Made by a program: the position numbers and the translations under genes. From the NCBI GenBank assembly GCA_018970255.1, contig JAGWWS010000029.1, positions 1-32,520 of the forward strand: a stretch of 32,520 bases of DNA, in the 5' to 3' direction. The notes below the pieces were generated by a model. It searched no databases, had not been told where the DNA came from, and saw only the letters and a program-made list of their open reading frames with translations. This stretch comes from Verrucomicrobiota bacterium (lineage in GTDB: Bacteria; Verrucomicrobiota; Verrucomicrobiia; Chthoniobacterales; Terrimicrobiaceae). Every line of letters begins with the position of its first letter. Positions within the stretch are counted from its first letter, which is position 1. Of this stretch, positions 24,752-32,520 are shown piece by piece.

Positions 24752-25489
24752 ATGGACATCCTCGGCATCGACATCGGCGGCACGGGAATCAAAGGCGCAC
24801 CCGTCAACACCGAAACCGGCGAACTCCTCGCCGAACGCTTCCGCATCCCCACGCCGCAACCCGCCCTCCCCAACGCCGTCGCCGATGTCGTCCAACAGGT
24901 CGCCGCCCACTTCGGCTACACCGGCCCGGCTGGCGTCACCTTCCCCGCGATTGTGAAAAAGGGGATCATCCACACCGCAGCGAATGTCGATGGATCTTGG
25001 ATCAATGTGGACGCCGCCGCCCTCTTCTCCGCCCACCTCGGCGGCGAAACCACCGTCGTGAATGATGCCGACGCCGCCGGCGTGGCCGAGATGCGCTTCG
25101 GTTCCGGCAAGGACCGCCCCGGCACCGTCATCATGCTCACCTTCGGCACAGGCATCGGCTCCGCCGTCTTCCACGACGGCGAACTCCTTCCCAACACCGA
25201 GTTCGGCCACCTGCAAATCCGCGGCAAGGACGCCGAACGCCGCTGCTCCGAGCGCGTCCGCGAGGAAAAAAACATGTCCTTCAAAAAGTGGGCGAAAATC
25301 GTAAGTGAGTATCTCGAAACGTTGGAAAAACTTTTCTCCCCCGAGTTGTTCATCATCGGCGGCGGTGTCAGCAAAAAAGCCGAAAAATTCCTCCCCCTAC
25401 TCACCGCGAAGACCCACGTCCTCATCCAACCGGCGAAAATGCAAAACGAAGCCGGCATCATCGGCGCCGCCTGCCTCGCCCGCCGGTAG
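24752..25489 (+). CDS. ppgK: Polyphosphate glucokinase (ROK family)
   Basis: Phosphorylates glucose to glucose-6-phosphate using inorganic polyphosphate (and usually ATP). 245 aa. ROK-type [13 protein letters not shown] at the N-terminus, [28 protein letters not shown], and the PPGK-type [15 protein letters not shown] that replaces the zinc-binding cysteine motif of other ROK kinases, then [15 protein letters not shown]. The ATG at 24752 gives the expected start; a much longer upstream frame is antisense to the TamB-like gene. Monocistronic, followed by a hairpin. Confidence 0.93.
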
Positions 25490-25492
25490 CGC

Positions 25493-25507
25493 GCGGCCTC
25501 CGGCCGC
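25493..25507 (+). terminator. Hairpin after ppgK
   Basis: Perfect inverted repeat GCGGCC-TCC-GGCCGC starting 4 bases after the ppgK stop. There is no T tract, so it may be a weak or Rho-assisted terminator or an mRNA-stabilising hairpin. Confidence 0.4.
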
Positions 25508-25550
25508 ACCGTCTCCCTTCAAACCGGAACCCGCCGTTCCAAAAATCCCA

Positions 25551-25578
25551 TTGCCTTTTTCCCCTACGCGAAGACCTT
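25551..25578 (+). promoter_or_regulatory. Weak candidate promoter of the AraC-type gene
   Basis: TTGCCT (25551-25556), 16 bases, GACCTT (25573-25578), 11 bases to the GTG at 25590. The -35 resembles the TTGCCA seen at other heads; the -10 is weak. Confidence 0.3.
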
Positions 25579-25589
25579 CTCCCGCGCCC

Positions 25590-26522
25590 GTGAAGCCTGC
25601 CAACGCCCAGCAACGCGCCATCGAATCGCTCCAAGCCAAGGACTGGGAAGCCCACTGGATGTGGGGCACGCAGGGCGCCGCGCCCGAGCCCAAATCCCGC
25701 GGCGGCCTCCTGCTCCTCGTGAATTTCGAAGGCCGCGCCGAATTCCTCCACGGCGGGAAGATCACCGAAGTCCCCGTCGGCCGCGTCGCCCTCGGCACCG
25801 GCATCCCCTCCATGTCCATCCGCCGCGCCGCCCCGGGCCACCACCGATTCCTCTGCCTGCGCGCCAAGCCCGCCTGGCTCGCAAAGTGGGGCATCGCCAA
25901 GCCCCGAGCCGCATTCCAGCTCCGCGAACTCAACGAGCACATCGGCCACGCCGCCCGAGACTTCATCGAAAATCCACCCGCCGGCCCCATGCGCCAGCCT
26001 TGGCGCGAAGCGAAGTTCGTCGAAATCCTCGCCCATGCCATGGCGCGCCCCGAGAACGGCTCCTTCCACGAAAAACTCAAAAACGGCATCGCCTCCCGAC
26101 GCGTCCACCAGGTCAAGCGCCTCCTCGCCGAGAACCTCGAAAACCCGCCCACCCTGGCCCAGCTTGCGAAAACGGCCGGCGTGAGCCCCTTCCACCTCAG
26201 CCGCATTTTTTCCGGCGAAACCGGCAAAACGATCCCCCGCCACCTCCGCGACCTCCGGCTCGAAAAAGCGGCCGAACTCCTGCGCAGCGGGCGCGCAAAT
26301 GTGACCGAAGCCGCCACCGCCGTCGGCTACTCGAGCCTCAGCCACTTCTCCACCGCCTTCACCGAAAAATACGCCGTCTGCCCCTACGGCTACCTCGTCT
26401 CCCCGTTTTCAAGCTCCACGCAACACACCACCCAGCATTCGAAAAAAACTCCGAAGCCTCAGCGTGGCAAACTCACCAAAGCTTTGAGTCCGTCCCGCTC
26501 GAGTCGCTCGACGCGGCACTGA
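25590..26522 (+). CDS. AraC-family transcriptional regulator
   Basis: 310 aa. The N-terminal ~160 residues are an unassigned sensor region. The C-terminal DNA-binding domain has two helix-turn-helix units: TLAQLAKTAGVSPFHLSRIF and VTEAATAVGYSSLSHFSTAF (about residues 188-265), then a basic Ser/Lys/Arg-rich tail of ~45 residues. It converges on hmuV and overlaps its 3' end by 64 bases. AraC-type regulators of the PchR kind control iron or heme uptake, so control of the facing heme operon is plausible but inferred from position only. The GTG start is chosen because the conserved region begins soon after it and upstream codons lack support. Confidence 0.87.
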   Translation: MKPANAQQRAIESLQAKDWEAHWMWGTQGAAPEPKSRGGLLLLVNFEGRAEFLHGGKITEVPVGRVALGTGIPSMSIRRAAPGHHRFLCLRAKPAWLAKWGIAKPRAAFQLRELNEHIGHAARDFIENPPAGPMRQPWREAKFVEILAHAMARPENGSFHEKLKNGIASRRVHQVKRLLAENLENPPTLAQLAKTAGVSPFHLSRIFSGETGKTIPRHLRDLRLEKAAELLRSGRANVTEAATAVGYSSLSHFSTAFTEKYAVCPYGYLVSPFSSSTQHTTQHSKKTPKPQRGKLTKALSPSRSSRSTRH

Positions 26523-27226
26523 TAAATTTCCGAAAGCTTCGCCGCATCCATCACCTCGGACGCAGCTCCCAAAGCGGCGACCCGCCCGGCCTTCAGCGCC
26601 AGCACTTCGTCGGCATACATCGCCGTGAGGTTCAAATCGTGGAGCACCGCCAGCACCGCATGGCCCTCAGCCGCAATGCGCCGCGCCTCCGCGAGGAGTT
26701 GGTGCTGGTGCGCGGGGTCCAAGCTCGAAACGGGTTCGTCGAGCAGAAGGGCGACTGGCGCGCCGGAGCCAAAAACCTGCGCAGCGGCGCGGGCGAACGA
26801 TGCCCTCTGCCACTCGCCGCCGGAAAGGTTCGCGCAATCCCTTTCAGAAATTTCCACCAAATCCATCCTCCGCAGCATTTCCTTGGAGATCGCCGCCGCA
26901 TCGCCCCCCACGGCGAACCTTCCGAGTTCGACCGCCTCCTGCACACAAATCCCCGCCGGCCGCGAATCCACCTGCCGCATCACGGCACAAAGCCGCGCGC
27001 GTTCCGCCGGCGCAAAGGAGGACACCGGCCGCCCCGCAAGCCTTACCGTGCCTGCATCCGGCTTCCACCACCCCGAGAGCACATTCAACAAAGACGATTT
27101 CCCCGCGCCATTGGGACCGATCACCGCCAGCACCTTGCCGGGCTCGAGTCGCAACGAAACGCCATCGAGGATGCGCTTCCCACCGCGTTCGAAAACCAAA
27201 CCCTCAGCCTCGAGCACCGCCGTCAT
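26459..27226 (-). CDS. hmuV: Hemin ABC transporter ATP-binding protein
   Basis: 255 aa ATPase powering heme import. Walker A GPNGAGKSS (residues ~31-39), Q-loop at VMRQVD, signature LSGGEWQ, Walker B LLLDEP, H-loop LHDLN, with the HmuV-like hydrophobic C-terminal extension. The ATG at 27226 overlaps the permease stop (ATGA); an ATG 27 bases upstream is an alternative within hmuU. Last gene of the heme operon; its 3' end overlaps the convergent AraC gene. Confidence 0.92.
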   Translation of the reverse strand: MTAVLEAEGLVFERGGKRILDGVSLRLEPGKVLAVIGPNGAGKSSLLNVLSGWWKPDAGTVRLAGRPVSSFAPAERARLCAVMRQVDSRPAGICVQEAVELGRFAVGGDAAAISKEMLRRMDLVEISERDCANLSGGEWQRASFARAAAQVFGSGAPVALLLDEPVSSLDPAHQHQLLAEARRIAAEGHAVLAVLHDLNLTAMYADEVLALKAGRVAALGAASEVMDAAKLSEIYQCRVERLERDGLKALVSLPR

Positions 27227-28233
27227 TCCGCCGCCCTCCGCCTCAGCAGCCATAGAAAAAACGGCCCGCCGGCCGCCGCCGTCAAAATCCCCACCGACAA
27301 CTCCGCCGGCGCCACCAGCGTCCTGGCACCGAGGTCCGCCCCGACCAGCAAAACCGCCCCGATCCCCACCGAAACTGGCAGCACCATTTTGTGCAACCCG
27401 CCGGCCAGCAGCCTCGCGATGTGCGGCGCCACGAGCCCGATGAAACCGATCATTCCCGCGAAGGCCGTTGCCGCGCCGGTGAGCAGCGCGCAGGCAACAA
27501 TGACCTCACCCCTCACCCGCCCCGTGGCGATCCCGAGGTGCGCCGCTTGCGCCTCGCCGAGTTGCAAGGCATCCAGCGCCCGGGCGTTGCGGGCGAGGAG
27601 GACCGCGCCGGCCACAAAAAAAACCGCCAGCACCAGGTTTTGCGCCCAGTTCGCCCCGCCGCAGCTGCCGAGCGTCCAGAAAGTGATCGACCGCAGCGCA
27701 CTGTCGCTCGCCGAAAACAGCGCAAACCCGAGCACGCTCCCGAGCATTGCATTCAAGGCGATCCCCGAGAGGATCAGCCCCGAAGCCCCGGCACCTTCAT
27801 GGCCCGCATGGAAAAGCCGCAGCAGCCCCACCGCGCCCAAGCCCCCTCCAAAAGCCATCGCCGGCAGCGCCCACCCGCCCAGCGCGGATTGCCAACCGGC
27901 CGCGAAACACACCACCGCCCCCACCGAAGCCCCCGCACTCACGCCAATCAGCCCCGGGTCCGCCAGCGGATTCCGGAAAATCCCCTGCACCCCCGCCCCG
28001 GCCAAGGCCAGCGAAGCCCCGACCAACGCCGCCAGCACCACGCGCGGCAGGCGGATCTCCCAAAAAACCGAAGACTCCATCGATTCCCCGAACGGGTTGA
28101 AAACAACTTCCAGCCACTGCGCAGGCCCGATCGAAACCGGCCCAAGCATCGCCCCCGCCAAAACCGCCAACGGCACAAAAAACGCGAGCGAAACCAAAAC
28201 CCCCGCCCCTCGGCCGGCGGAACCCGTTTTCAC
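27223..28233 (-). CDS. hmuU: Hemin ABC transporter permease (FecCD/BtuC family)
   Basis: 336 aa with about nine to ten membrane helices. Family motifs: LPRVVLAALVGASLALAGAG, GIFRNPLADPGLIGVSAGAS, GFIGLVAPHIARLL, ADLGARTLVAPAELSVGILTA. It moves heme (or a ferric siderophore) across the inner membrane; heme is favoured by the adjoining heme oxygenase. The start is a GTG at 28233 overlapping the stop of the binding protein (GTGA) with no Shine-Dalgarno site. A T8 tract in the coding strand (27616-27623) encodes consecutive Phe. Confidence 0.92.
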   Translation of the reverse strand: MKTGSAGRGAGVLVSLAFFVPLAVLAGAMLGPVSIGPAQWLEVVFNPFGESMESSVFWEIRLPRVVLAALVGASLALAGAGVQGIFRNPLADPGLIGVSAGASVGAVVCFAAGWQSALGGWALPAMAFGGGLGAVGLLRLFHAGHEGAGASGLILSGIALNAMLGSVLGFALFSASDSALRSITFWTLGSCGGANWAQNLVLAVFFVAGAVLLARNARALDALQLGEAQAAHLGIATGRVRGEVIVACALLTGAATAFAGMIGFIGLVAPHIARLLAGGLHKMVLPVSVGIGAVLLVGADLGARTLVAPAELSVGILTAAAGGPFFLWLLRRRAAE

Positions 28234-29225
28234 GGCTGGGCGAACCGCGAGGCGACCAAGCGCGCCGCCGAGGCGCTCCGGGGACCGAACCCCAAAAACG
28301 CCGCATCCTCCACGCGGAGGATCCTGCCATTCCTCGCCGCCGGCGTCTGCGCCAGCCCGGGCACGCTTTGCAGCAACTCCGCATCCGTCCCCAGAACACT
28401 CTCCGAAACCAAAACAAAATCCGGCTTCATCGCCGCGAACGCCTCCGCCGAAAGGGGCTTGTAACCTTCAAACCCCGCCCCGGCATTGGTTCCGCCGCAC
28501 GCCTCGACCATCGCATGCGCCGCCGTCCCGCTGCCCGCCGCCATCAGGTTGTTCCCCCCGCGCGCATGCAGGAAAACCACCGAAGGCTTCTTCCCGATCG
28601 CCGCCACCGCCGCATTCAATTTTTCCAGCTGCCCCCGGAACTCCGCCTGCATCCCGGCACCCTTTTCCGGCCGCCCCACAGCAGCGGCCACCTGCGAAAT
28701 TTTGCCATCCACATTCTCCAGCGAGCGCCCCGCATCCACCACCACGACCTCCACTCCCGCCCCGCGGATTTGCTCCAGCACCGCCGCCGGCCCCGCCTCC
28801 GAGGAAACCACCACCAAATCGGGTTTCTGCGACAGCACGCCCTCCGCCCCGAGCATCCGCACATAGCCCACATCCGGCTTGCCCCCCATCCCATGCAAGG
28901 CGCGGCTCGAAGTATCCACCGCCACCAACCGGTCCCCCAACCCCAACCCCGCCACAATCTCCGTCACCGCCGCCCCTGCCGTCACAATCCTCTGCGGCTC
29001 CCCAAACGCCAACCCCGCCCCGAAAAAAAGAAACGCCGCAAAAACCAAAAGGTAGGGACGCCGCTCCGCCGGGGTCCCAAGCTTCAGGCGCGAAGCGCCG
29101 TGGAAACGAGGAGGGCGCTGCTTGTCAGCGCCGGGCCGGCCTCCGCAAACACACCGGTTGGGCTTTGAAAAGCAGCCCTCCCGTGGGCGCGCATCCGGAC
29201 AGCCTGAAAATCCCCCCACCCTCAT
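28230..29225 (-). CDS. hmuT: Hemin-binding periplasmic protein with repeat-derived N-terminal extension
   Basis: Substrate-binding component (BtuF/HmuT type). The mature part starts near residue 75: RIVTAGAAVTEIVAGLGLGDRLVAVDTSS, LSQKPDLVVVSSEAGP, VVFLHARGG, KPDFVLVSESVLG. A signal-peptide-like core lies at residues ~59-73 (YLLVFAAFLFFGAGLAFG). The only in-frame ATG before it is at 29225, overlapping the heme oxygenase stop (ATGA). That gives a 331-aa protein with about 57 extra residues (Cys-, Arg-, Pro-rich), mostly encoded by palindromic repeat DNA. A TTG at residue 60 is the only other in-frame start, but it would leave a signal peptide without a basic n-region. Confidence 0.85.
   Translation of the reverse strand: MRVGGFSGCPDARPREGCFSKPNRCVCGGRPGADKQRPPRFHGASRLKLGTPAERRPYLLVFAAFLFFGAGLAFGEPQRIVTAGAAVTEIVAGLGLGDRLVAVDTSSRALHGMGGKPDVGYVRMLGAEGVLSQKPDLVVVSSEAGPAAVLEQIRGAGVEVVVVDAGRSLENVDGKISQVAAAVGRPEKGAGMQAEFRGQLEKLNAAVAAIGKKPSVVFLHARGGNNLMAAGSGTAAHAMVEACGGTNAGAGFEGYKPLSAEAFAAMKPDFVLVSESVLGTDAELLQSVPGLAQTPAARNGRILRVEDAAFLGFGPRSASAARLVASRFAQP
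29055..29178. repeat. Cluster of palindromes inside the 5' part of hmuT
   Basis: Four short inverted repeats lie in 124 bases: GGGAC...GTCCC (29055-29078), GGCGC-GAA-GCGCC (29087-29099), GGCGCTG-CTTGT-CAGCGCC (29114-29132) and GGGCT...AGCCC (29160-29178). The style, including phrases like GGAAACGAGGAGGGCGCTG, resembles dispersed intergenic repeat elements I associate with Verrucomicrobiota (from memory, not searched). It stays open in the hmuT frame and encodes residues ~16-57. Confidence 0.6.
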
Positions 29226-29857
29226 CCCGCATGGATCTCGTCATCCAGCGCCGAAATCGCGCGGAAGGTCTCCTTCGCCGCCTCCACCATCGCATCCTGC
29301 TCCGCCTCCGACCAAGCGATCGCATTCATATCCTCGCGGAACTTCATCCAAAGCCCGCGCTGCGCCTCCCCGTGCGGATCGAGATACTTCAGCCCCTGCA
29401 AGTCCGCCTTCCCCCAAGCCTTCGCCAGCGACTTCGCGATATACCGCGCCCCGTTCTTGCTCCCCTCGAAAACATAAAAAATCCCCATCAGCACGGCCGT
29501 CGACCCCGCCCCGCGGATCATCGCCAGCAGCCCCTCCGAGCCCCCCATCGCCCGGATCGAAGCGGTATCCGCCCCGAGGTGCGCGAGGTCCTCCTCGATA
29601 TTCCGCGTCTGGTAAAGCCCCGGCAACCCCAGCGCCGCCAAGCGCGAATCCGACGCCAACGCCCGGTCCGCCGCCGCCTCAAGCTCGCGGTGAACCACCC
29701 AGCGTTGTTCCAAATATTTTTTGTATTGGCCGTGGTTGATGGAACCGCCGATGAGCGCCTCCTCGAGCGGCTTCGCCTCCGCCACGGCATGCAATTCGGC
29801 GGTCTCTGTCTTAAGCCGGCCCATAATGCCGGTCGGTGCGGGTGCTGTTGGTGTCAT
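29222..29857 (-). CDS. hmuO: Heme oxygenase (biliverdin-producing)
   Basis: Opens the heme ring in the cytoplasm, releasing iron, CO and biliverdin. 211 aa, all-helical. The probable proximal heme His is in KTETAELHAVAEAKPLEEAL near residue 24; the distal glycine-rich helix appears as GSTAVLMGIFYVFEGSKNGARYI. The ATG at 29857 is 4 bases after the pseudopilin stop (TAA-TTTT-ATG), and its stop overlaps the hmuT ATG. This gene fixes the nature of the operon as heme use rather than general siderophore uptake. Confidence 0.9.
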   Translation of the reverse strand: MTPTAPAPTGIMGRLKTETAELHAVAEAKPLEEALIGGSINHGQYKKYLEQRWVVHRELEAAADRALASDSRLAALGLPGLYQTRNIEEDLAHLGADTASIRAMGGSEGLLAMIRGAGSTAVLMGIFYVFEGSKNGARYIAKSLAKAWGKADLQGLKYLDPHGEAQRGLWMKFREDMNAIAWSEAEQDAMVEAAKETFRAISALDDEIHAG

Positions 29858-29861
29858 AAAA

Positions 29862-30662
29862 TTATTCCGATGCCGCGTAGTTCGGGTCATCGTTGATAGC
29901 GGCGTTGCGGCTCCAAAGTCTCATGTCCCGCAATTCCTCAAGCGACATCTTTTTCACGGAGCCGTCGAGGAAGGCGACCACGGCCTTCCCATCATGCCGC
30001 GGGTGCACATATCCGTAATTTCCGGGGTCGGATTTCTCCGTCCATTTCCCGGAACCCCACGCGCCGCCCGGCGCCCCCGGCGCCCTCACATACTCGTAGC
30101 CCTCGACTTCGGTCGTGCCAGCGGATGCGAACGCAATAATGGAATGGTCGCCCTGCGCGACGGTCTTAACTGCCTCTGTGCTGTTCGCGCTGGCGCCACC
30201 CACGAAATGCCGGTTGATGCCGAGCGAAGGGAATGCGCTGACCCCGTAATAATACATGGTGCCTTCGGGCTTCGGGAGGTTCATGGCTTTCATGATCTGG
30301 CCCTTGTTTTTTCCAACCAGCAGCGTCCCGTCGATGTCATAGCCGAAATAGGGCGCGAGACGGAAAGGATAGCGCTCCCGGATTTGCTTCATCCGGATTT
30401 TTTTTCCCTGCGGGTCCATGACATCCTGTGCGGCCGGGTCGAAAGCAAGCGGAAACCGGCCCCCGTTGTCGGCGGCGGCGGACTGCAGTGCGGCAACCAG
30501 GCTCCTTCCCGCCGAAACCTCCGCCGCCGAGGAAGCCCGGTCCATGGCGGAATGGACCGCAACGCTGCCGAGCGCCGCCAGCAGCGCAACCACGGCGACC
30601 ACCACCATGAGTTCGAGGAGGGTGAACGCTTTTTTTCCATTGATCATTGTTTTTGCTCTCAT
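29862..30662 (-). CDS. Type II pseudopilin-like protein with H-X9-DG motif
   Basis: 266 aa. Short basic leader then AFTLLELMVVVAVVALLAALG, the type IV prepilin methylation signal with Glu at +5 and a long hydrophobic helix; Ala rather than Gly precedes the cleavage site. A large extracytoplasmic domain follows, ending with the H-X9-DG motif (HDGKAVVAFLDG), typical of PVC-group pseudopilin-like proteins. The ATG at 30662 overlaps the stop of the upstream secreted-protein gene (ATGA); an ATG at 30647 is an alternative. No other pilus or secretion genes are nearby. It sits 4 bases before heme oxygenase, so it is almost certainly co-transcribed with it. Confidence 0.88.
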   Translation of the reverse strand: MRAKTMINGKKAFTLLELMVVVAVVALLAALGSVAVHSAMDRASSAAEVSAGRSLVAALQSAAADNGGRFPLAFDPAAQDVMDPQGKKIRMKQIRERYPFRLAPYFGYDIDGTLLVGKNKGQIMKAMNLPKPEGTMYYYGVSAFPSLGINRHFVGGASANSTEAVKTVAQGDHSIIAFASAGTTEVEGYEYVRAPGAPGGAWGSGKWTEKSDPGNYGYVHPRHDGKAVVAFLDGSVKKMSLEELRDMRLWSRNAAINDDPNYAASE

Positions 30663-31612
30663 TGTCTTGTTGCCCTGAAAAACATCTTTTGCGACCAAGC
30701 CGCCCGCCTGTCGCCGGCGGCGCTGAAGGACACGCTGAAGGTTCCGTTGCCCGTGGAATAAGTGCCGGCGGAAGTCCATACCGCGGATTCCAGCGACTCC
30801 ATGTATTGGATCGAGTAGGTGGAATTTGCGTCGCCCTGGAAACCATGAACCACTGTCGTGTTGACCCCGTTGTGGGAAGGCTGGCCGATGGAGACCAAAT
30901 TAAGGACCGGCGGGCGGGTGGGCGTGGCGGCACTGAAAACGCTCCTATTCAAAACCGCCGTGCTTTGGTCGAGCCTCATGGCGTAAATCTGCGCGTGCGT
31001 TACTGCGCTGAAGTCGATCGCAATCGAGGTGGTGGTGGTGGACCCAAGGCTCCACTCGAAAGCGTATGTATTTACATAAACATTTTCATCCAAGCCGGTT
31101 TCTGGACTTTCAAAGAATCCATCCTGGTATCTATTCCTGCGTGTTGTGAAGCTCGGGGAAATAGAAGAGTTGGACCCATTCAATTTCAAAACCGGCCATC
31201 CCGAAGGTGTAAAAAAATCAAAACCAAGCGCCTCCCCGATTTGAATTTGAAGCACGATTGTGCGGATGCCTGAGAGTGGCGTTCCGTCGCTGGCACGGAA
31301 AGTCGCACCCAGCACATTTTGCTCCTGCACAAAGTCACCAAGGTAAAGGGTGTTTGTTGCAAAAAACGCCGCGCCGCCCAGTTTGTTCAATTCCGCGTCG
31401 CCAGAGCCCGCTTGGTTGGAGCCAGCAGGCGCAGTCCACGCGGAGCTTCCAGGGAAACTTCCGCTGATTCTTGGAAAAGACGCCCCGTTCATATTCACCC
31501 AACCATCAAAAACACTGCTGCCCGACCCAAACTGGGGTGCTGAGATTTGGGCTGTTGCCGAGCAAACCAAGCAAAGAACCGCAAGAACTATGGAAACGAA
31601 GAGACGCTGCAT
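30659..31612 (-). CDS. Secreted protein of unknown function in heme operon
   Basis: 317 aa with a clear signal peptide (MQRLFVSIVLAVLCLVCSATA, cleavage before QIS). The body is Ser/Thr/Gly/Asn-rich and beta-like (FDGWVNMNGASFPRISGSFPG ... GIRTIVLQIQIGEALGFDFF). The last ~70 residues (YSIQYMESLESAVWTSAGTY ... KMFFRATRQ) match a C-terminal beta-domain pattern I recall from many Verrucomicrobiota exported proteins. No heme motif is obvious. It is 12 bases after the PEP-CTERM gene and coupled by ATGA to the pseudopilin, so it likely works in the same surface process. Confidence 0.75.
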   Translation of the reverse strand: MQRLFVSIVLAVLCLVCSATAQISAPQFGSGSSVFDGWVNMNGASFPRISGSFPGSSAWTAPAGSNQAGSGDAELNKLGGAAFFATNTLYLGDFVQEQNVLGATFRASDGTPLSGIRTIVLQIQIGEALGFDFFTPSGWPVLKLNGSNSSISPSFTTRRNRYQDGFFESPETGLDENVYVNTYAFEWSLGSTTTTSIAIDFSAVTHAQIYAMRLDQSTAVLNRSVFSAATPTRPPVLNLVSIGQPSHNGVNTTVVHGFQGDANSTYSIQYMESLESAVWTSAGTYSTGNGTFSVSFSAAGDRRAAWSQKMFFRATRQ

Positions 31613-31624
31613 CCACCGATAGAC

Positions 31625-32350
31625 CTAAGGTTGGTTTCTTTTGCTGCGGAACCTGCACAGCCGTTGGAAGCCCAAAGCCGCCAGCCCAGCCGCAACCAGC
31701 CCCCATGCGCCAGGTTCGGGGACCACAGAAATCTGGTCGACATCAAATGTGAAAGTTTGGTTCGCCAAGCCGATGTTTGGGGCAACAACAAATTGGATGT
31801 TCTGCATGCTACCAAAGATGGCGTTGAAGCCCGCCGGGCTTGGGACGGCGCCACTTGGTGGATTGGCTTGCCCGTAGGATTGGAAGGAACCCACGGAATC
31901 CAAAATGGGAATACTCAGGCTCGTCCACGCATTCGGCGCCACCGTGAAACCAATCGAACTAGCCGCCCGCCCTCCGCCCGCATCCAAGCGCGCAAAGATT
32001 CCCAGTTCCGAAGGAGCATTGTGCCGGACAAACGCGGAGAAATTCGAAACTCCCCCGGAAATCCAGTTTCCGACAAATGCATCGCCGCTCGCATCGGCGC
32101 CGGCATTGCCCCGAAAGACGATCGTTCCAAACCCCGACGCCACAACCGTGCCGGTCGCCGAAATGTATGCGCCGTCCCCGACGCCGCCTGTCGGCAGCCA
32201 TGTGGCATTCGCGCTTGCCCCATCAAGCCAATTCGCCCTGTTGGTTGCGAAGTCCTCGATGAATGGCAAAGGCCCCAACGCAAACGCCCCCTGCGCCCCA
32301 GCGGCGAAAGCAACGGCAGCCAACCAAAAGCACCCTCGAAATTTCTTCAT
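31625..32350 (-). CDS. PEP-CTERM exosortase-sorted exported protein
   Basis: 241 aa. Signal peptide at the N-terminus (MKKFRGCFWLAAVAFAAGA), a beta-rich domain starting FIEDFATNRANWLDG that looks like a carbohydrate-binding or jelly-roll module, and a PEP-CTERM tail: VVPEPGAWGLVAAGLAALGF then RLCRFRSKR. An exosortase encoded elsewhere would cut and anchor it. The ATG at 32350 starts the signal peptide; upstream in-frame codons are unsupported. It follows the putative TonB receptor by 86 bases with no evident terminator. Its role in heme capture is inferred from position only. Confidence 0.85.
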   Translation of the reverse strand: MKKFRGCFWLAAVAFAAGAQGAFALGPLPFIEDFATNRANWLDGASANATWLPTGGVGDGAYISATGTVVASGFGTIVFRGNAGADASGDAFVGNWISGGVSNFSAFVRHNAPSELGIFARLDAGGGRAASSIGFTVAPNAWTSLSIPILDSVGSFQSYGQANPPSGAVPSPAGFNAIFGSMQNIQFVVAPNIGLANQTFTFDVDQISVVPEPGAWGLVAAGLAALGFQRLCRFRSKRNQP

Positions 32351-32436
32351 GGAACCCTGCTTTCTAAACAAACCCCCGCCCCCCGCTTCCGCCCGATTGC
32401 TCTTTCTTTGCGGTCGATTGCTGTCCATCGCGCGGC

Positions 32437-32520
32437 TCAAAACTCGACTTTCACGCCTGCATACCAGTTCCTCGGCGCCGCGGGGTCGATGCCCTCGGGG
32501 CGGATGCGCGCGTAGTATTG
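32437..32520 (-). CDS. C-terminus of a probable TonB-dependent receptor (truncated by window edge)
   Basis: Only 27 codons are visible, ending RNWYAGVKVEF and a TGA at 32439-32437. The ending (Pro-Arg-Asn-Trp-Tyr-Ala-Gly ... aromatic terminal residue) is the standard closing beta strand of outer-membrane TonB-dependent receptors. Lying just upstream of a heme-uptake operon on the same strand, it would be the outer-membrane heme receptor. The remainder is outside the window. Confidence 0.6.
   Translation of the reverse strand, partial: QYYARIRPEGIDPAAPRNWYAGVKVEF

Follow-up and report, generated by a model that had tools for sequence, protein, structure and literature searches.

The window, a 32,520-nucleotide stretch of DNA from a Verrucomicrobiota bacterium, carries a heme-uptake operon in which a pseudopilin and two exported proteins are encoded next to a heme oxygenase and a heme transporter. 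Comparison across genomes suggests that pseudopilin and exported proteins together make up a surface module, conserved in Planctomycetota and Verrucomicrobiota, that in the latter would serve mainly heme acquisition, a reading that we put at slightly under an even chance. As the gene set is conserved beside genes for heme uptake and breakdown, it suggests a surface step in obtaining iron from heme that is new to the literature, in Verrucomicrobiota with occasional cases in Planctomycetota. The module would probably capture heme or hemoproteins. The operon and the adjoining regulator gene are composed as follows.

32437..32520, minus strand: C-terminal 27 residues of a TonB receptor, cut by the contig edge, stop at 32437
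31625..32350, minus strand: PEP-CTERM protein, 241 aa, Pfam PEP-CTERM at the cut-off, predicted jelly-roll fold
30659..31612, minus strand: SP317, exported protein of 317 aa, no Pfam family found
29862..30662, minus strand: pseudopilin of a distinct family, 266 aa, prepilin signal and H-X9-DG motif
29222..29857, minus strand: heme oxygenase (HO), 211 aa, Pfam Heme_oxygenase 6e-21
28230..29225, minus strand: HmuT periplasmic binding protein, Pfam Peripla_BP_2 5e-32, true start perhaps near 29048
27223..28233, minus strand: HmuU permease, Pfam FecCD 7e-88
26459..27226, minus strand: HmuV ATPase, Pfam ABC_tran 7e-23
25305..26522, plus strand: AraC-type regulator, open frame with putative start, Pfam HTH_18 3.5e-21

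The eight closely packed minus-strand genes and their features, as described in an earlier note on this DNA, were confirmed when coordinates and spacings were rechecked. The gaps are 86 bases between the receptor tail and the PEP-CTERM gene, 12 between the latter and SP317, -4 between SP317 and the pseudopilin, 4 between the pseudopilin and HO, and -4 at each of the HO/HmuT (as annotated), HmuT/HmuU and HmuU/HmuV junctions. The spacing points to one operon for the FecCD permease, the Peripla_BP_2 protein and the ABC ATPase, and together with the heme-degrading enzyme these give the window operon an Hmu-type composition by Pfam. The heme oxygenase matched PDB heme oxygenases with phmmer (e.g. 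1iw0, 7e-7), and the His of its 'TAxxH' motif was aligned. The AraC-type gene faces HmuV in convergent orientation, and genome G005 (locus L015) has an AraC-like gene with this position and orientation.

The window pseudopilin matched N_methyl (PF07963, 4e-6, above the cut-off) and also TIGR02532, indicating an N-terminus for prepilin cleavage and methylation. It reached 21.4 bits with the H-X9-DG model TIGR04294 (cut-off 19, NCBIfam). The His of this motif is not conserved across the whole family, and the G005 relative, scanned with NCBIfam, had no TIGR04294 match. A family profile (A1) was made from the pseudopilins of heme loci and therefore favours such loci. In a search of 40 genomes it gave 29 full-length matches of 251-370 bits, and the next match had 70 bits; by sequence, the heme-locus pseudopilins are a sharply separate family. 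Across the class, with at most the best eight candidates per genome scored, 50 full-length members were found in 47 of 286 genomes, and the surroundings of all but those in G139 and G291 were covered.

A search for conserved adjacency in related genomes, as the earlier note had proposed, showed that the surface genes recur beside heme genes. Heme genes were present within 6 kb at 36 of 80 named loci, or at 26 of 80 without DUF6607, a family on which the literature search found no paper. They made up 68 of the 758 genes within 6 kb as compared to 0 of 407 farther out. Control pseudopilins from the same genomes had heme genes at 0 of 20 loci; all these loci had the prepilin motif at the matched place, 17 had 6 kb on both sides, and for five the gene caller placed a different frame at the centre. 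Among the 286 genomes sampled, the module adjoins 14 of 17 strong HO loci (at least 72 bits) and 8 of 15 strong HmuS loci (at least 84 bits), the other seven being without it, and no module was found beside five weak HO loci (L106-L110). The surroundings covered were those of 17 strong and 5 weak of 33 HO matches and of 15 strong of 23 HemS matches. HO or HemS matches occurred in 30 of the 47 genomes with the family and in 22 of the 239 without it, in raw counts that ignore kinship. The linkage was kept across families with HO, HmuS and one HugZ/HutZ-like enzyme (a DUF2470-PNPOx gene beside the module at L252) and with varied gene orientation, and HO lies beside the module also at two sister Planctomycetota loci (L201, L210). 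Mapped onto the pilin tree, the heme label switches 11 times, against a shuffled mean of 27; the label is clustered and does not trace to a single event.

The linkage of module and heme genes exceeds chance. Pseudopilin and PEP-CTERM genes are common, with as many as 62 matches to the profile in a single genome (E 1e-5) and PEP-CTERM-type neighbours at 12 of the 20 control loci, and could sometimes land in a heme operon as chance neighbours. Such an explanation is contradicted already by the gap around the family, the 80-locus count and the controls, and by recurrence in many lineages; we give it almost no weight. The joint function with heme uptake proposed earlier is well supported by the conserved linkage, while the surface relay harvesting heme is a step that we infer beyond it.

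The pseudopilin and its exported partner are replaced together while HO-HmuTU stays put. Between G254 and G263, HO, HmuT and HmuU are 88%, 80% and 83% identical, and the pilins are 37% identical with unrelated exported proteins; between the window's own genome (G000) and G022, HO is 78% identical and the pilin only 37%. Partner type changes four times on the pilin tree as compared to a shuffled mean of 19 (minimum 13), in a count where 16 of 81 rows were unlabelled and SP022 was the label for loci carrying both types. The earlier note had held that free variation of the surface genes beside a constant hmuO-hmuTUV would speak against a joint role; the identities do vary, yet the slot stays filled and the pair changes jointly. 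The junction before the pilin is a start/stop overlap in 22 of 49 distinct loci with a close same-strand gene there (19 of 49 with -4/-1 overlaps alone). These counts remain after removing places fetched twice; the junction was assessed at 122 of 126 loci, of which 60 had a close same-strand gene and 28 overlapped by -4, -1, -8 or -11. A recognised related exported protein lay within two genes at 16 of 22 HO/HmuS loci, and 8 of 26 members away from such loci were without one.

This pairing would also fit a pseudopilin that acts as a cargo-specific type II secretion subunit, with a partner that binds polymers or debris and supplies heme indirectly, and the frequency of PEP-CTERM-type genes beside the control pseudopilins agrees with it. 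The heme linkage is, however, specific to this pseudopilin family, and we consider secretion alone rather unlikely. T2SSE-type ATPases were found in 12 of 12 genomes; as the 14 control genomes all had them too, they prove little.

The PEP-CTERM protein matched PF07589 exactly at the cut-off (20.7 bits) and TIGR02595 at 14 bits, just below the cut-off of 16. Exosortase was found in 12 of 12 genomes tested, with three matches in the window's own genome. Met1, Tyr90, Gln122 and His206 of SP317 are invariant among 28 sequences, itself included, and His110 and Arg80 are among the invariant residues of the PEP-CTERM family in an alignment of 10 that contained the window protein and Planctomycetota sequences. 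In the SP022 family, no His, Tyr or Met is invariant. Tyr90 and His206 of SP317 are a lead for candidate heme ligands. The AlphaFold model of the PEP-CTERM protein (pLDDT 73) had Foldseek matches to CBM11 and laminin IV, and the SP317 model (pLDDT 87) had weak fold matches; both models suggest jelly rolls of the carbohydrate-binding type, with a weak resemblance in the case of SP317. No heme-binding family was recognised in the scanned exported proteins by Pfam or NCBIfam, and searching the PDB by sequence with profiles of SP317 and of the PEP-CTERM protein gave nothing meaningful. Homology of SP317 to the longer SP462/LONG families was supported (hhalign probability 97.9, E 4e-13). Homology to the SP022 family was unsupported (probability 1.1), and the alignment to the window PEP-CTERM protein was confined to some 30 columns of the sorting tail.

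Several known systems resemble parts of this arrangement. In the Isd system of staphylococci, sortase-anchored surface proteins are encoded next to a heme transporter and a heme-degrading enzyme. The window likewise has predicted sortase-like anchoring of surface proteins beside such genes, but with an exosortase instead of a sortase, a Gram-negative envelope and a pseudopilin, and no NEAT domain was matched in the window proteins by Pfam at E 0.01. HmuY of Bacteroidota is an exported beta protein encoded beside heme uptake. HmuY-type hemophores have His or Met as heme ligands (PMC6200708), and one motif of the SP317/SP462 superfamily carries His, or Met at the next position. SP317 and the PEP-CTERM protein nevertheless had no HmuY match (Pfam, E 0.01), the HmuY fold was absent among the best 50 fold matches listed for each model, and heme binding is putative only. 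The putative PEP-CTERM tail and the exosortase in the genome are those of PEP-CTERM/exosortase sorting, the literature function of which is exopolysaccharide association, in a text that, as far as consulted, does not contain the word heme (PMC1569441). PilA1 of Synechocystis is also a type IV pilin tied to iron supply; its abstract concerns growth on iron oxides, not heme, and mentions no heme operon (PMC4144903).

The window shares HmuTUV, a heme-degrading enzyme and a receptor tail with Hmu/Hem operons, to which it adds the pseudopilin and exported proteins. Outer-membrane heme uptake is taught as a matter of TonB receptors. The receptor tail noticed earlier proved real: 24 of its 27 residues are identical to the C-terminus of TonB receptor L291 from the same-genus genome G022; for receptor L290 of G244 the figure is 22 of 27. 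This match ruled out a misreading or artefact, which the lack of a plug or barrel in the own genome might have indicated. The 27-mer alone had no PDB match. Two TonB receptor models gave neither a plug nor a barrel match in the own draft genome, and the rest of the receptor therefore lies outside the assembled contigs; absence in other drafts can likewise be an assembly gap. Among the 22 module loci of the fetched class set, several of which end close to contig edges, none had an adjoining TonB receptor. Such a receptor is thus the exception in relatives, and the earlier idea that heme is passed to it does not hold as a general rule.

Seven genomes (G005, G008 on three contigs, G009, G010, G209, G254 and G263) have the module, a heme-degrading enzyme and HmuTUV and gave no plug and no barrel match; they are half of the 14 genomes in which the module adjoins HO/HmuS and at least HmuT is present. 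In addition, a receptor lies in the fetched stretch at 5 of the 7 HmuS loci that lack the module, as compared to none of the 22 module loci. By analogy with competence pili and DNA, a dynamic pseudopilus might bring heme or a heme-loaded partner through a secretin. Here jelly-roll proteins anchored by exosortase or by a dockerin-like tail would bind heme or hemoproteins, and the pseudopilin would couple them to a retractable pseudopilus that delivers to HmuTUV without a TonB receptor. If heme is what the module handles, it may even replace the receptor in genera where none was found. We regard both the entry route and this version of it as improbable. The window genome has a receptor next to its module that the searches missed, one to three plug matches were found in each of six further genomes with module and heme genes, and L196 and L215 combine module, HmuS and receptor. 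Moreover, G006 lacks plug and barrel matches without having the module, eight fetched HO loci without the module also have no receptor nearby, and porin leakage is a simpler route than a hypothetical pilus retraction.

A serious rival to heme acquisition is a co-regulated adhesive or protective pilus or surface layer, induced by iron or peroxide stress, which would share regulation with heme uptake but not the substrate. Members at L148 and L150 adjoin an AhpC-type peroxiredoxin and thioredoxin reductase and those at L175 and L015 a bacterioferritin (all named by eye), and the L149 member adjoins an Fe/Mn superoxide dismutase (Pfam). AraC-like regulators occur at 5 of the 26 loci that are not beside HO/HmuS and at none of the 20 controls, and heme genes within 6 kb at only 4 of these 26, three of them by DUF6607. 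Most Planctomycetota loci are without heme genes, with 3 of 27 having one nearby (2 of 27 without DUF6607). Among 97 of 102 eligible neighbours of Planctomycetota members, a list that included one Kiritimatiellota locus and two unassigned loci, no iron family was among the 25 commonest of 114 families. The carbohydrate-binding-like folds, as modelled, and the exopolysaccharide link of PEP-CTERM proteins would fit as well. Upstream Fur boxes gave no general signal, with 1 of 16 regions (L014) beating all 100 shuffles. Co-regulation needs no adjacency, yet the adjacency to heme degradation survives changes of orientation and enzyme, and heme neighbours are more numerous than the oxidative ones seen. 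We consider this rival possible, at about one chance in three.

For heme acquisition, the reading we prefer, the exported proteins, carrying a signal peptide and then a PEP-CTERM tail (a dockerin-like tail in Planctomycetota), would sit on the outer membrane or beyond it and would bind heme or hemoproteins, perhaps via the invariant His/Tyr of the SP317 family. The pseudopilin would be a dedicated subunit that lets the general type II/IV pilus machinery export or display the partner. Heme would then reach periplasmic HmuT, by way of a TonB receptor in genomes that have one, and HmuUV would import it, after which heme oxygenase or HmuS would free the iron. Should the module indeed act on heme, it would represent a new type of heme capture at the cell surface, in two phyla that are widespread in the environment. 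The earlier note knew of no described role for an exosortase substrate plus a pseudopilin in heme capture, and at the level of titles and abstracts the literature likewise linked no pseudopilin or PEP-CTERM protein to it. To our knowledge, the roles of many Verrucomicrobiota and Planctomycetota pseudopilins and PEP-CTERM proteins are largely unknown; a well-defined family and its exported partners here gain a testable physiological context, and cultured hosts exist, among them Cerasicoccus arenae and Haloferula rosea.

The spacings given earlier for the window operon stood except at the HO/HmuT junction. A palindromic repeat at about 29184-29105 lies within the first codons of the HmuT open reading frame, before the signal peptide, and makes the -4 overlap doubtful. 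The same repeat is found at at least 21 other places in the own genome (40 of 203 candidates scored), and HmuT may in fact start near 29048. The corresponding gap in four relatives ranges from -4 to about 30.

The heme operon of the window reads, on the minus strand, TonB-receptor tail, PEP-CTERM protein, exported protein (SP317), pseudopilin, heme oxygenase (HO), HmuT, HmuU and HmuV, with an AraC-type regulator at its other side directed towards it. The window is one entire contig (32,520 bases) of a draft genome of 2.56 Mb in 88 contigs that is 93% complete. The arrangement described in the earlier note is real and recurrent, and we judged the operon to be a variant heme-uptake operon whose surface module has a so far undescribed function. 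All gene spacings were as the note had given them, but the overlap of HO and HmuT that it reported is doubtful, because a palindromic repeat separates the first codons of the HmuT open reading frame from the signal peptide. HmuT may in truth begin further in, close to 29048. The features of the window are as follows.

31625-32350, minus strand: PEP-CTERM protein of 241 aa
30659-31612, minus strand: SP317, exported protein of 317 aa
about 29184-29105: palindromic repeat of about 80 bases in the 5' part of the HmuT reading frame, with at least 21 further matches elsewhere in the same genome
29045-29101: shorter second stretch of about 57 bases adjoining the palindrome, matching 4 other places in the same genome
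1973-3892: squalene-hopene-cyclase-like gene, judged on the translation alone

HO of the window type was found in 2 of 26 genomes of the family, including the window's own genome. In the other, the same-genus genome G022, a PEP-CTERM protein, an exported protein and a pseudopilin again precede HO. Genome G005, of the same family, has a pseudopilin that overlaps a related PEP-CTERM protein by 4 bases, and the two are followed by the alternative heme-degrading enzyme HmuS and by HmuT, HmuU and HmuV; an AraC-like gene is convergent with this run and a bacterioferritin-like gene, named by eye, lies upstream. A search of 286 genomes of the class gave a HemS match in 23 (22 over the cut-off) and an HO match in 33, from which 34 loci were fetched. 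The module of pseudopilin and exported partners adjoined 14 of 17 strong HO loci (at least 72 bits) and 8 of 15 strong HmuS loci, being absent from the other 7. The neighbourhood is kept though the orientation is not, since pseudopilin and HO lie on opposite strands and face each other in the g79 genus. In the g79 loci L093 to L103, except L100 and L102, HO and pseudopilin are adjacent and convergent, and no HmuTUV was recognised in the stretch shown. In L093 and L179 HO is followed by a secretory CAP-like protein (by eye).

Next we surveyed the pseudopilin family with profile A1, built from 16 heme-locus pseudopilins and hence biased to heme loci. In 40 genomes it gave 29 full-length matches of 251-370 bits, the next match being at 70 bits and covering the N-terminal part, and single genomes held up to 62 matches. 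The 286-genome sample contained at least 50 full-length members in at least 47 genomes, with scores of 216-370 bits and an internal stop in one of them. These counts are lower bounds, as up to 8 candidates were scored per genome and matches were taken to E 1e-17. An HO or HemS match was present in 30 of the 47 genomes with the family as compared to 22 of the 239 without it, uncorrected for kinship and with the heme bias of A1. A related exported protein was recognised in 16 of 22 HO/HmuS loci. Of 26 members away from these selected loci, 18 had such a protein within two genes; within 6 kb, 4 had a heme gene (DUF6607 in three cases) and 5 an AraC-like gene. As a control, 20 other pseudopilins of the same genomes were tested, 17 of them with 6 kb on both sides. 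None of the 20 had a heme gene or an AraC-like gene and 2 had a related exported protein, whereas a PEP-CTERM-like neighbour was present in 12. Thus a pseudopilin adjoining a PEP-CTERM protein is ordinary in these genomes, and the heme link is specific to the A1 family. The family pseudopilin with an internal stop codon in genome G058 (L164, 9057-10004) adjoins two SP317-like PEP-CTERM genes.

A scan of genome contigs with A1 confirmed 106 relatives, and 80 loci were kept. They belong to Verrucomicrobiota, Planctomycetota and, in one case, Kiritimatiellota, with Cerasicoccus frondis, C. arenae, C. maritimus, Haloferula rosea and Geminisphaera colitermitum TAV2 among the cultured hosts. The genes counted as heme genes, with a blastp threshold of 70 bits, were HO, HmuS, HmuT, HmuU and DUF6607 (Pfam PF20311), the last on its recurrence and not on a known function. 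Of the 80 loci, 36 had heme genes within 6 kb (26 when loci with DUF6607 alone are omitted); such genes made up 68 of 758 genes within 6 kb as compared to 0 of 407 beyond. In Verrucomicrobiota they occurred in 32 of 46 loci (23 without DUF6607-alone loci), and in Planctomycetota in 3 of 27 (2 likewise). Among Planctomycetota, HO adjoins the module in L201 (Pfam) and L210 (blastp), two loci that are close relatives. In L252 a DUF2470-PNPOx protein (Pfam), which we take to be of the HugZ/HutZ type, adjoins the module and HmuT/HmuU. DUF6607 recurs by the same module in L160, L162, L165, L195, L200, L204, L207, L213, L223, L224, L230, L238 and L245, with L160 and L223 being one and the same place, as are L165 and L213. 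An AraC-like gene is often present there, in L204 also a TonB receptor, and DUF6607 is perhaps another heme- or iron-handling protein.

The likeliest role of the surface module would be capture of heme or hemoproteins, to which we give slightly less than an even chance. A wider role in iron or peroxide stress is a serious rival, because some members have oxidative or other neighbours, most members in Planctomycetota lack nearby heme genes (97 of their neighbours showed no leading iron family), no general Fur-box signal was found and no heme-binding domain was recognised in the exported proteins. The neighbours in question are peroxiredoxin and thioredoxin reductase, named by eye (L148, 7659-9558; L150, 7714-9623), an Fe/Mn superoxide dismutase by Pfam (L149, 6929-10896) and, by eye or blastp, bacterioferritin (L175) and two ABC exporters with an AraC-like gene (L152). 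In L233, L253 and L254, from Planctomycetota and unassigned records, the pseudopilin and a partner of the SP022 type adjoin apparent genes for an outer-membrane efflux protein, a MacB-like permease and an ABC ATPase. No tie of a pseudopilin or PEP-CTERM protein to heme capture was found in a literature search that mostly lay outside subscription journals. The nearest precedents were PilA1 in iron use of Synechocystis (PMC4144903), HmuY-type hemophores (PMC6200708) and PEP-CTERM/EpsH (PMC1569441).

Comparison of related operons pointed to exchange within them. Between genomes G254 and G263, HO was 88%, HmuT 80%, HmuU 83%, HmuV 67% and the PEP-CTERM protein 59% identical, whereas identity was 37% in the pilin and the exported proteins in the middle position were unrelated, a forced alignment of them giving 22%. 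Similarly, the window's genome and G022 shared 78% identity in HO and 37% in the pilin, and both exported proteins differed. When the partner type, SP317-like or SP022-like, was mapped for 65 labelled rows onto a tree built from 81 pilins, it required 4 changes, as compared to a mean of 19 and never fewer than 13 in 300 shuffles; for Verrucomicrobiota alone there were 3 changes against a shuffled mean of 9.4 and minimum of 5. Taken together, low pilin and partner identity beside high HO-HmuTU identity and the few changes of partner type read as a functional pair that would be exchanged as a cassette within a fixed heme operon. The heme label took 11 changes against a shuffled mean of 27 (10 against 22.7 without DUF6607), so it is clustered by kinship, yet one event does not explain it.

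SP317 had no Pfam or NCBIfam family. In its alignment with 27 relatives (18-50% identity, some starts uncertain) only Met1, Tyr90, Gln122 and His206 were invariant among the 28 sequences. The longer SP462/LONG proteins are homologous to SP317 (hhalign 97.9%, E 4e-13) and retain Tyr, Gln and Trp; at the His motif 6 of 13 have HTS/HSS and 7 of 13 SMS, with Met one position past the His. Since heme is known to be ligated by Tyr, His and Met (PMC6200708), these residues of the superfamily are candidate ligands, a lead and nothing more. In the PEP-CTERM protein of the window, His110 occupies one of 16 columns that are invariant across all 10 sequences aligned, which include Planctomycetota. The SP317 model (pLDDT 87) gave only weak fold matches, none at E 0.001, mannan-binding CBM27 among them, and the PEP-CTERM protein model (pLDDT 73) resembles CBM11 and laminin IV jelly rolls. 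The 31 sequences of the SP022 family had no invariant His, Tyr or Met. The one Planctomycetota SP022 member scanned carries a C-terminal dockerin-type domain (L228, 7807-8835) in place of the PEP-CTERM or other tail of its Verrucomicrobiota relatives; it is possible that one protein family is anchored differently by lineage. All 12 genomes tested for exosortase had it. T2SSE-type ATPases were present in the same 12, which says little, as all 14 control genomes have them too.

The call of a TonB-receptor tail at the contig edge proved right, as 24 of the 27 residues are identical to the C-terminus of a receptor in G022 and 22 of 27 to that of one in G244. The assembly lacks the remainder of this gene, and neither a plug nor a barrel of a TonB receptor was found in the window's draft genome. 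Receptor absence in drafts can therefore be an assembly gap. Of 46 genomes searched for a plug, 33 had one. Seven genomes that carry the module, a heme-degrading enzyme and HmuTUV gave no match to either domain (G005, G008, G009, G010, G209, G254 and G263), of which G008 is assembled in 3 contigs, and neither did G006, a genome without the module. In the fetched stretches, a TonB receptor was present at 5 of 7 HmuS loci without the module (L083, L085, L088, L089 and L090), at 0 of 8 HO loci without it and, in that set, at 0 of 22 loci with it. Module, HmuS and receptor occur together in the named loci L196 and L215.
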